From NCBI GenBank assembly GCA_021324175.1, contig JAJPJP010000422.1:1-64000 (forward strand): a DNA stretch of 64,000 nucleotides, read 5' to 3'. This DNA comes from Chitinophagia bacterium (GTDB taxonomy: Bacteria; Bacteroidota; Bacteroidia; Chitinophagales; Chitinophagaceae). The notes below the pieces were generated by a model that was not told where the DNA came from, did not search any database, and saw nothing but the letters and a program-made list of their open reading frames with translations. The number at the start of each line of letters is the position of its first letter. Positions within the stretch are counted from its first letter, which is position 1. Positions 723-4,223 of the stretch are shown here, piece after piece. The position numbers and the translations under genes were made by a program.

Positions 723-1736
723 ATGGAATTATATCTTGACTCGGCCAATTTAGGGGAAATCGAAGAAGGATTTAAGCTTGGTTTCCTCGATGGTCTGACA
801 ACGACGCCAACCTTTATGCAAAGGGAAGGTATCACGGACATTGATGGAACGATCGTCAAGCTATCCAAGATGGTGCCTGTCCTTCAGATAGAAGCGCTGG
901 GCGGCTCGGCCGAAGAAGTAGTTAAGGAAGCCCAACGGCAGCTCGATCTTGGATTGGATTCAAAACGGACGGTTTTTAAACTCCCTGTTTCTCTCGAAGC
1001 TGTGCGTGCATGCTATCTCCTTCGCAAAAAGGGCCTGCTGGTCAACATCCACCTGGTATATACCCTGCAGCAGGCCTATATGGCCATGCACGCGGGCGCA
1101 AACTATGTTTGCCCCTTAATCGGCCGCTTGCAAGACCAGGGTCATGACGCACTTGCGCTCGTCGAACAGTGTGTCAATGCCGTTAACCGCTATCATTATG
1201 AAACCAAAGTGATGTTCAGCTCTGTTCGACACAATGAGCACGTCCGCAATGCCATCAACCTGGGCGTACATACCATTACGGTTCCCCTTAAAGTCCTGAA
1301 ATCACTGACAGATAATAACTTCACCGCGATCGGCACCGAACAGTTCCTGCGCGATACCAGGCTGATGACGGTCAGGGTGAAAGACGCGATGAACCGGATC
1401 AATCCGGTTGTGGATTCGAAAACTGATTTGAAGCACGCGATTGTGAAAATGACCGAATATGGTTTTGGTGCCGTAACCGTGGTCAACAACGGTTCTGTAT
1501 CCGGCGTATTCACCGATGGCGACCTCAGGCGCCTGCTGCAAAAAGACGGCGAACATATCCTGGATAAAAAACTTCAGGAGCTTTCATTTAAGTCACCCGT
1601 CAGCATCGATTCGAACGCCCTGCTGAATGATGCCGCCGGCTTGTTCAAACAAACAAATGTTGACACGATCCTGGTAACGGAAAATGGAAAGCCGGTCGGC
1701 ATGCTGGACATCCAGGACCTGAAAAGCGAGGAATAA
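723..1736 (+). CDS. Transaldolase/fructose-6-phosphate aldolase-like protein fused to C-terminal CBS-domain pair
   Basis: N-terminus MELYLDSANLGE..GLTTTPTF and VFKLPV (Schiff-base Lys) are FSA/TalC-like; C-terminus VKDAMNRINPVVDSKTDLKHAIVKMTEYGFGAVTVVNNGSVSGVFTDGDLRRLL is KdsD-like CBS. Confidence 0.85.
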   Translation: MELYLDSANLGEIEEGFKLGFLDGLTTTPTFMQREGITDIDGTIVKLSKMVPVLQIEALGGSAEEVVKEAQRQLDLGLDSKRTVFKLPVSLEAVRACYLLRKKGLLVNIHLVYTLQQAYMAMHAGANYVCPLIGRLQDQGHDALALVEQCVNAVNRYHYETKVMFSSVRHNEHVRNAINLGVHTITVPLKVLKSLTDNNFTAIGTEQFLRDTRLMTVRVKDAMNRINPVVDSKTDLKHAIVKMTEYGFGAVTVVNNGSVSGVFTDGDLRRLLQKDGEHILDKKLQELSFKSPVSIDSNALLNDAAGLFKQTNVDTILVTENGKPVGMLDIQDLKSEE

Positions 1737-1784: not shown

Positions 1785-2495
1785 ATGAATGACGATATCA
1801 GTCAAATAGCCCAGATGTTCCGCGGCCGGTTCCTGGAATCGCCGGAATCCCTGCGTCAAAAGGTCATTAGGATACGGGCCATTGTGTTTGATTGGGATGG
1901 GGTATTTAATGGCGGCATTAAGGACGAGAGTGGCTCAAGCACTTTTAGCGAGATTGACGCGATGGGAACAAATCTTCTTCGATTCAGCCATTTCATCGCC
2001 ACAAACCAAAGCCTGTTTACCGCCATTATTTCCGGCGAAAAAAATCCATTGGCTTTCAAATTCGCCAAGCGCGAACATTTTCATGAGGTCTATTTTAAGA
2101 TTAGGCATAAATCGGAAGCCGTCCTTCATTTCTGCCGCCGTAATGAAATTGATCCGCAGGAAGTAGCTTTTGTTTTTGATGACGTGCTTGACTTTTCAGC
2201 CGCGCGAATATGCGGGCTACGGGTGATGGTTGGCAGGACAGTCAATCCGTTCTTAACAGGGTACGCCACCCAAAAAGGCCTGGCCGACTATATCACATCC
2301 GTCGACGGTGGCAGTCATGCGGTGAGAGAAGCTGTCGAATTGATGATGGCCATACGGGGCAATATTATGGATACAATAGAAAAACGAACGGAGTTTGGAG
2401 AAACCTACCAGCGCTACTGGCAATTTCGGAATGCGATTGATCCGGCTTTTTATACGACCGAAGATTATATCAATTTTCAACTGACCCCGCAATGA
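1785..2495 (+). CDS. KdsC/YrbI-like HAD-family hydrolase with N- and C-terminal extensions
   Basis: HAD motif I FDWDGVFNGG; later FVFDDVLDFSAARICGLRVMVG; located between aldolase-CBS and kdsB. Confidence 0.7.
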   Translation: MNDDISQIAQMFRGRFLESPESLRQKVIRIRAIVFDWDGVFNGGIKDESGSSTFSEIDAMGTNLLRFSHFIATNQSLFTAIISGEKNPLAFKFAKREHFHEVYFKIRHKSEAVLHFCRRNEIDPQEVAFVFDDVLDFSAARICGLRVMVGRTVNPFLTGYATQKGLADYITSVDGGSHAVREAVELMMAIRGNIMDTIEKRTEFGETYQRYWQFRNAIDPAFYTTEDYINFQLTPQ

Positions 2496-3238
2496 TCATT
2501 GGAATTATTCCGGCCCGGTTTGCATCTACGAGGTTTCCCGGGAAACCCCTGATTGATATCTGGGGGAAATCCATGATTCAGCGGGTATATGAAAGGTCAG
2601 CACGGGCCAAAACCTTAAACCGGTTAATTGTCGCGACGGATGATGAAAGAATACGAGATCACGTCCAGGGCTTCGGCGGCGAGGCGGTAATGACCAGGCA
2701 ATTCCATGCGAGCGGGACAGACCGTTGTTTCGAAGCCCTGGGACTTCTTGCCGAAACTTATCGCTGGGTAATCAACATCCAGGGCGACGAACCATTCATC
2801 CGGCATGAGCAAATTGACGAACTCACCGAAGCCTTTGACGAGGAAGCCGAGATCCTCACGCAAATGATTGCGGTTTCATCAAGCGAACAACTCTTTGATC
2901 CGGGCGAGGCTAAAATCGTGCTCAACGAAAAAAACGAGGCTTTGTATTTCAGTCGGTCCCCGATCCCATTTGTCAGGAATGTGGCAGAAAAAGAATGGCA
3001 TTTGCATCATCTCTTTTATCGTCAGGTCGGTATGTACGCATACAGGAGCGATATTTTGCGAAAGCTAACCAGCCTCGCAGTGACCCCGTTGGAAAAAGCT
3101 GAATCCTTGGAGCAGCTGCGCTGGTTACAAAACGGATTCAGGATAAAATGTGTTCTTACGCGGTATGAAAGTCACTGCGTCGACGTGCCCGATGATATCG
3201 AACGCATTCTGCGAATAACCGGCGAAATCGATCCGTAA
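2492..3238 (+). CDS. kdsB: 3-deoxy-manno-octulosonate cytidylyltransferase (KdsB)
   Basis: GIIPARFASTRFPGKPL, VATDDERI, INIQGDEPFI, YFSRSPIPF; ATGA overlap with the preceding gene. Confidence 0.95.
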   Translation: MIIGIIPARFASTRFPGKPLIDIWGKSMIQRVYERSARAKTLNRLIVATDDERIRDHVQGFGGEAVMTRQFHASGTDRCFEALGLLAETYRWVINIQGDEPFIRHEQIDELTEAFDEEAEILTQMIAVSSSEQLFDPGEAKIVLNEKNEALYFSRSPIPFVRNVAEKEWHLHHLFYRQVGMYAYRSDILRKLTSLAVTPLEKAESLEQLRWLQNGFRIKCVLTRYESHCVDVPDDIERILRITGEIDP

Positions 3239-3281: not shown

Positions 3282-4223
3282 ATGGTGAAGGAAAAAATTC
3301 TGGTCATCGGCGCCTCAGGGCAGATCGGAGTGGAGCTTACACTCGCCCTGAGAAAAATTTACGGCAACGCGCATGTGGTGGCCTCAGATCTCCGGGAAGA
3401 AAACGAGCTGCTCAAAGGTACCGGGCCCTACGTTTCCCTTGACGTCATGAACAAAGAAATGCTGCATGTCCAGGTTATACGGCAAAATATTACCCAGATC
3501 TACCTGCTGGCCGCGATACTTTCTGCGACCGGCGAAAAAAATCCCGGCCTCGCATGGCACCTCAATATGCAGGGGTTGCTCCATGTTCTCGACATTGCCC
3601 GTGAAGAAAAATTGCAAAAAGTCTATTGGCCAAGCAGCATCGCGGTTTTCGGTCCCACTTCACCTAAAAAAAATTGTCCGCAGCAGACAATCATCGAACC
3701 GATCACCGTATATGGGATTAGTAAATATGCGGGGGAATTCTGGTGCAATTATTTCAACCGCCGGTTCGGTGTGGACGTGAGAAGCATCCGCTATCCGGGT
3801 CTGATCAGCTATAAATCCGCGCCGGGCGGCGGGACGACTGACTACGCGATTGAAATTTTCCATGAGGCCCTTGAGCAAGGCAAATACACCTGTTTTCTCA
3901 ACGAAGACACGCTTTTACCGATGATGTATATGCCGGACGCGATTCGCGCTACCGTCGAACTGATGGAAGCTCCTCGCGAGAGGATTTCGGTCCATACCTC
4001 TTACAATGTTGCGGCGATTACTTTTTCGCCAAAAGAAATCGGCGCCGAAATCAAGAAGCATATTCCCGGCTTTGAAATCTCTTTTACGCCTGATTACAGG
4101 CAGGCGATTGCAGAAAGCTGGCCCCAAAGCATCGATGATTCAACCGCTCGCCAAGATTGGGGTTGGAAGCATGAGTTTGACTTGTCGAGAATGACCTCGG
4201 ATATGCTGGCCAATCTCCAATGA
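3282..4223 (+). CDS. SDR-type L-threonine 3-dehydrogenase / NAD-dependent epimerase family
   Basis: Rossmann GASGQIG; LLAAILSATGEKNP, PSSIAVFGPTSP, TVYGISKYAGE, RYPGLISYKSAPGGGTTDYA, LPMMYMPDAIRATVELMEA. Confidence 0.85.
   Translation: MVKEKILVIGASGQIGVELTLALRKIYGNAHVVASDLREENELLKGTGPYVSLDVMNKEMLHVQVIRQNITQIYLLAAILSATGEKNPGLAWHLNMQGLLHVLDIAREEKLQKVYWPSSIAVFGPTSPKKNCPQQTIIEPITVYGISKYAGEFWCNYFNRRFGVDVRSIRYPGLISYKSAPGGGTTDYAIEIFHEALEQGKYTCFLNEDTLLPMMYMPDAIRATVELMEAPRERISVHTSYNVAAITFSPKEIGAEIKKHIPGFEISFTPDYRQAIAESWPQSIDDSTARQDWGWKHEFDLSRMTSDMLANLQ

Follow-up and report, generated by a model that had tools for sequence, protein, structure and literature searches.

A transaldolase-family aldolase joined to a KdsD-type CBS pair as a candidate arabinose 5-phosphate synthase in Kdo operons of Bacteroidota

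Can an aldolase stand in for the isomerase KdsD in supplying arabinose 5-phosphate (A5P) for Kdo synthesis? The question is raised by a gene cluster at the beginning of the window, the stretch of 64,000 nucleotides analysed here (contig JAJPJP010000422.1 of assembly GCA_021324175.1, from a Chitinophagia bacterium), in which a transaldolase-like domain is joined to a pair of CBS domains within a Kdo operon. Kdo synthesis has A5P formation as its committed step, and most Gram-negative outer membranes rely on Kdo; to our knowledge, no enzymes other than SIS isomerases are known to form A5P. In one group of Bacteroidota, KdsD is missing and the fusion lies in the Kdo operon instead, which points to a second natural route to A5P.

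Architecture of the fusion and its gene cluster

The original prediction of an aldolase joined to a KdsD-style CBS pair was borne out, as both halves lie in a single open reading frame (Table 1), in which Pfam recognised TAL_FSA at residues 3-223 (E 2.7e-31), two CBS stretches (E 8.3e-18) and nothing else. Among the CBS-bearing NCBIfam models, kpsF/KdsD ranked first for the C-terminal part (60 bits, query 214-328), and the top match of a PDB search with this half was 4o9k, the CBS pair of a KdsD, which we take to bind CMP-Kdo. In a tree of 40 CBS modules, drawn from 16 fusions, 19 KdsD proteins and 5 other CBS proteins, the fusions and KdsD together were split from this small outgroup of five at 100/100. 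The fusion therefore resembles KdsD/KpsF/GutQ (SIS + CBS) in its C-terminal CBS pair, and it also holds the same pathway position; unlike these proteins, it has no N-terminal SIS domain detectable by Pfam or TIGR00393 (KdsD/KpsF), the latter aligning with the CBS half alone (152-267 of 268). Because a class I aldolase barrel forms its catalytic half, the chemistry must differ from that of KdsD. An AlphaFold2 model comprises the barrel and the CBS pair (mean pLDDT 87, pTM 0.58), and the best Foldseek matches of the barrel were the transaldolases 1vpx, 3s0c and 3r8r (target TM 0.82-0.88). A frameshift or an assembly join as the origin of the fusion is ruled out by about 80 named, full-length orthologues with 75-88% identity and by the most divergent carriers, which belong to other families and show 59-60% identity; we regard the fusion as a conserved protein family.

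Table 1. Features of the Kdo cassette in the window, with codons of the aligned active-site residues
Feature	Position	Strand	Basis
kdsA, Kdo-8-phosphate synthase, 3' part, 222 codons	1..671	+	PRK05198 E 1.1e-82, TIGR01362 E 4.3e-80
TAL/FSA-CBS fusion, proposed A5P-forming enzyme	723..1736	+	ATG at 723, stop at 1736, 337 aa
Class I aldolase domain, residues 1-213	723..1361	+	alignment, AF2 model, Foldseek
T28 codon	804-806	+	alignment
Schiff-base Lys86 codon	978-980	+	alignment
H110 codon	1050-1052	+	alignment
C130 codon	1110-1112	+	alignment
L132 codon	1116-1118	+	alignment
S166 codon	1218-1220	+	alignment
KdsD-type CBS pair, residues 214-333	1362..1721	+	NCBIfam kpsF, PDB 4o9k, CBS tree
Divergent KdsC-like HAD phosphatase, 236 aa	1785..2495	+	NCBIfam 51 bits, below cut-off
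kdsB, CMP-Kdo synthetase	2492..3238	+	NCBIfam kdsB above cut-off

The proposed gene order, kdsA followed by the fusion, a KdsC-like HAD gene and kdsB, was recovered in the window by NCBIfam and Pfam, and kdnA and kdnB could be added to it further upstream. The window is the start of its contig (C371), where the 5' end of kdsA is truncated; kdnA and kdnB lie on contig C246 of this genome, followed by the first 50 codons of kdsA up to the contig end, which leaves a gap of about 10 kdsA codons between the two contigs. Relatives show the order kdnA, kdnB, kdsA, fusion, KdsC-like HAD, kdsB, and this six-gene cassette is whole in 34 of 79 loci. The start of kdsB overlaps the HAD stop by 4 bases in the window, which is also the median across loci; a WaaA-like Kdo transferase gene lies upstream in 23 of 80 loci, and a few carriers, G248 among them, have kdsA away from the cassette.

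KdnA and KdnB match the solved 8-amino-Kdo enzymes of Shewanella (E 1.5e-125 and 5.5e-122), among which KdnB has a described role in 8-amino-Kdo synthesis (PMC5125639). As in the Shewanella Kdo8N pathway, orthologues of both are encoded here, directly upstream of the cassette kdsA, and the combination that marks a Kdo8N cluster, KdnA and KdnB together with kdsA and kdsB, is present. We identify the cluster by these matches as an 8-amino-Kdo cassette, of which the contig break had concealed kdnA and kdnB.

The HAD protein of the window has a longer C-terminus than KdsC. Canonical KdsC was absent from 7 of 10 carriers tested, where the divergent HAD of the cassette was the sole match, and it was present in eight non-carriers; since the HAD is the only KdsC-like protein in those seven genomes, the phosphatase step seems to have been exchanged together with the isomerase step.

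Two further observations concern the neighbouring genes. The gene after kdsB in the window (3282-4223), and likewise in seven named loci, encodes an SDR dehydrogenase similar to D-erythronate dehydrogenase, and in about 15 loci (L083, L084, L128 and others) kdsA and the fusion are separated by an extra ORF, either PIN-domain-like (about 138 aa) or four-helix-like (122 aa).

KdsD in genomes with and without the fusion

The survey of genomes supports the original proposal of a replacement or bypass of KdsD by the fusion. A whole-genome search for an SIS-type KdsD in the window's own genome (88% complete) returned matches to CBS domains only. The first set of carriers, that is, genomes with the fusion, consisted of 56 entries representing 53 distinct genomes, and SIS-type KdsD was absent from 51 of these, the exceptions being G027 and G481; a kdsD gene is thus far from present in all genomes with the fusion. 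Among the carriers without KdsD, one is a complete chromosome (CP075895.1) and six are drafts with a completeness rating of 99-100%.

In a sample of 299 genomes of the family, partly overlapping the 53-genome set, KdsD was missing from 27 of 30 carriers as against 19 of 269 non-carriers, the other 250 having it (Fisher p about 7e-23, with relatedness ignored). Among genomes with a completeness of 90% or more and a contamination of 5% or less, the corresponding values were 25 of 28 and 6 of 225 (p 1e-25, relatedness again ignored). Most of the genomes surveyed are metagenome drafts, and related genomes are not independent; comparison within genera is the check that takes relatedness into account. 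Six genera (g1, g31, g203, g214, g227 and g278) contain carriers without KdsD alongside non-carriers that have it, and in g217 and g269 the sampled carrier holds both the fusion and KdsD. In all, KdsD accompanies the fusion in G027, G481, G573 and G726, and it looks intact where inspected. A sample of the phylum (396 genomes) yielded no genome with both; in its same-class part, six genomes were devoid of KdsD, namely all five carriers and G099, a non-carrier in which no true kdsA was found.

The fusion and KdsD are accordingly nearly exclusive across genomes, and the substrate requirement persists, with one true kdsA per genome in 24 of 24 carriers checked. The SIS proteins of nine carriers, classified by reading their sequences and not by family-model scores, resemble GlmS, MurQ, GmhA, PGI/PMI and RpiR types; no KdsD-like candidate appeared among them, and the idea that another SIS protein acts as KdsD was rejected. 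With KdsD gone, kdsA kept and no KdsD-like SIS protein at hand, KdsA needs A5P for which no known source is left. We consider it very likely that the role of the fusion is to supply A5P in place of KdsD.

One genome stands apart from this pattern. G082, rated 100% complete, has a strong kdsA (G082:C1:171431-172189; L154, L188), and searches in it found neither the fusion nor a KdsD (E up to 1e-35); its SIS proteins are of GlmS, GmhA and MurQ types by appearance. It may possess a third source of A5P or an unrecognised KdsD.

Active site and candidate reactions

The assignment of the catalytic half to the FSA/TalC-type class I aldolases held only in part: the fold and the Schiff-base lysine stand, but the protein departs from both the standard FSA and the standard transaldolase, because five active-site positions are altered in all carriers. 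We aligned 84 fusions with 54 transaldolase-family relatives and E. coli FsaA. All 84 fusions retain the Schiff-base K86 and D6, E57, N108, R135, S167 and R169, among them the acid/base and phosphate-binding residues, and transaldolases nearly always have these too, so that the fusion shares with FSA/TalC (PF00923, TIGR00875) the fold, the lysine, Asp6 and the phosphate-binding Arg/Ser residues; Glu57 is likewise common to the family, with Gln in FsaA. In contrast, the substitutions N28T, T110H, S130C, F132L and A166S are uniform in the 84 fusions, at positions that are invariant or nearly so in the 54 relatives (equivalent to N28, T109, A129, Y131 and A165 of FsaA and to N35, T156, S176, F178 and A225 of TalB). 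Asn28 and Thr110 occur in all 54 relatives and FsaA, and Thr28 and His110 in every fusion; ordinary FSA chemistry therefore cannot be assumed. The active site is thus different from that of an ordinary transaldolase. With residues assigned to the phosphate side or the donor side as is usual for the family, the alignment reads as a phosphate side that is retained and a donor side that is remade.

Family models agree with this distinction. Against the FSA/TalC equivalog TIGR00875, the fusion scored 154.5 bits and did not reach the cut-off of 245.95, whereas a separate, ordinary TalC in the window's genome scored 248.9 bits and passed; the CBS pair and the location in a Kdo operon further set the fusion apart from FSA/TalC. 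Also noted was a third TAL_FSA protein (G000:C241:7590-8168; L251), divergent and lacking CBS domains, with 134.7 bits to fsa_talC_mipB, below the cut-off.

E. coli FsaA has been shown in vitro to carry out the chemistry behind the original prediction, namely the formation of A5P from glycolaldehyde and glyceraldehyde 3-phosphate (G3P) by FSA (PMC9947464, PMC6298115). Position 130, equivalent to Ala129 of FSA, is Cys in the fusions and Ser in transaldolases; the A129S change of FSA is reported, in a study cited by PMC6298115, to improve dihydroxyacetone affinity, and a residue other than Ser at this position thus fits a donor other than dihydroxyacetone. Given the retained phosphate side, the remade donor side and the FsaA precedent, the simplest model is an A5P aldolase. 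We assign a probability of roughly 0.6 to the reading that the fusion took over from KdsD as a class I enzyme dedicated to A5P synthesis from glycolaldehyde and G3P.

The sequence shows a class I aldolase barrel in the place of the SIS isomerase domain, with the KdsD-type CBS pair retained, and the cassette contains the remaining genes from A5P to CMP-Kdo as well as the 8-amino-Kdo genes kdnA and kdnB. According to the model, Lys86 would form a Schiff base with the C2 aldehyde donor, glycolaldehyde, and the enamine would add to G3P held by Arg135, Ser167 and Arg169, yielding A5P that would feed KdsA. The CBS pair may sense the end product, CMP-Kdo or CMP-8-amino-Kdo, and thereby restrain the committed step.

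This route is weakest in its supply of glycolaldehyde, which is scarce in its free form and for which no producing gene could be recognised in the vicinity of the fusion across 80 loci. The reaction is probably the condensation of glycolaldehyde with G3P, possibly the conversion of R5P through an enzyme-bound C2 unit, which would dispense with the free aldehyde. In the latter case, the fusion would be a non-SIS A5P enzyme and in effect an R5P 2-epimerase, binding R5P as a Lys86 imine at C1 and inverting C2, either by retro-aldol cleavage and re-addition of the Lys-bound glycolaldehyde enamine to G3P or by C2 proton exchange using His110/Glu57, with the CBS pair again sensing CMP-Kdo or CMP-8-amino-Kdo. 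TalB F178Y is reported to yield R5P beside A5P and FsaA only A5P (PMC9947464), indicating that the C2 face is adjustable in the transaldolase fold. All 84 fusions have Leu132 at the position of TalB F178, and T110 has become His. Aldolase-type epimerases exist, L-ribulose-5-P 4-epimerase being one. However, the G3P-binding residues would be needed equally by a simple aldolase, and we know of no epimerase in the TAL family; we hold the R5P route to be rather unlikely, if worth keeping in mind.

A more conservative proposal, which we judge improbable, is that an ordinary transaldolase or FSA has come under KdsD-type control and that another, unrecognised enzyme isomerises Ru5P to A5P. The protein is indeed a PF00923 member with the catalytic lysine, and G082, having kdsA without KdsD or the fusion, implies that other A5P sources can exist. 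Yet this proposal is at odds with the invariant changes at N28, T110, S130, F132 and A166 and with the equivalog score (154 of 246 bits) in a genome whose separate TalC passes, and it leaves the loss of KdsD upon gain of the fusion unexplained. That the fusion supplies a different aldose for condensation with PEP by KdsA, as the extra sugar-modifying genes kdnA and kdnB might suggest, is hardly credible, since a full-length cassette KdsA (G024/L066) exceeds the Kdo-8-P synthase equivalog cut-off and KdsB its own, Kdo itself is the substrate of KdnA and KdnB, and KdsD-bearing relatives commonly have KdnB genes as well.

If the fusion is indeed an A5P synthase, an unrelated second A5P enzyme would account for a step now missing from the pathway in many Bacteroidota genomes, an FSA-type aldolase would gain a defined natural role, and a regulatory domain would have been retained while the catalytic domain was swapped. 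It would also provide a natural A5P aldolase for glycolaldehyde-assimilation pathways, for which an enzyme with higher glycolaldehyde affinity is wanted (PMC9947464). In the open-access literature, outside which most subscription journals lie, we found neither a description of a transaldolase-CBS protein nor an account of KdsD being replaced in this way.

Spread of the cassette

An association of the fusion with 8-amino-Kdo as such was rejected, because KdnB is encoded in 190 of the 299 family genomes, mainly in non-carriers. KdnB proteins more than 70% identical to that of the cassette were confined to carriers (26 genomes of the family sample), and those of the other genomes listed were near 50% identity, even inside one genus; the cassette thus seems to travel as a unit. 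These distributions suggest that it moves as such and displaces scattered canonical genes, and the four genomes with both the fusion and KdsD may represent intermediate states. Beyond Bacteroidota, plasmid records were covered: no match spanned more than 80% of the query, and the best ones were confined to the aldolase half. At one locus (L094), a record titled Azovibrio restrictus, a betaproteobacterium, contains the Bacteroidota cassette at 80% identity; it is probably a mislabelled or mixed metagenome bin.
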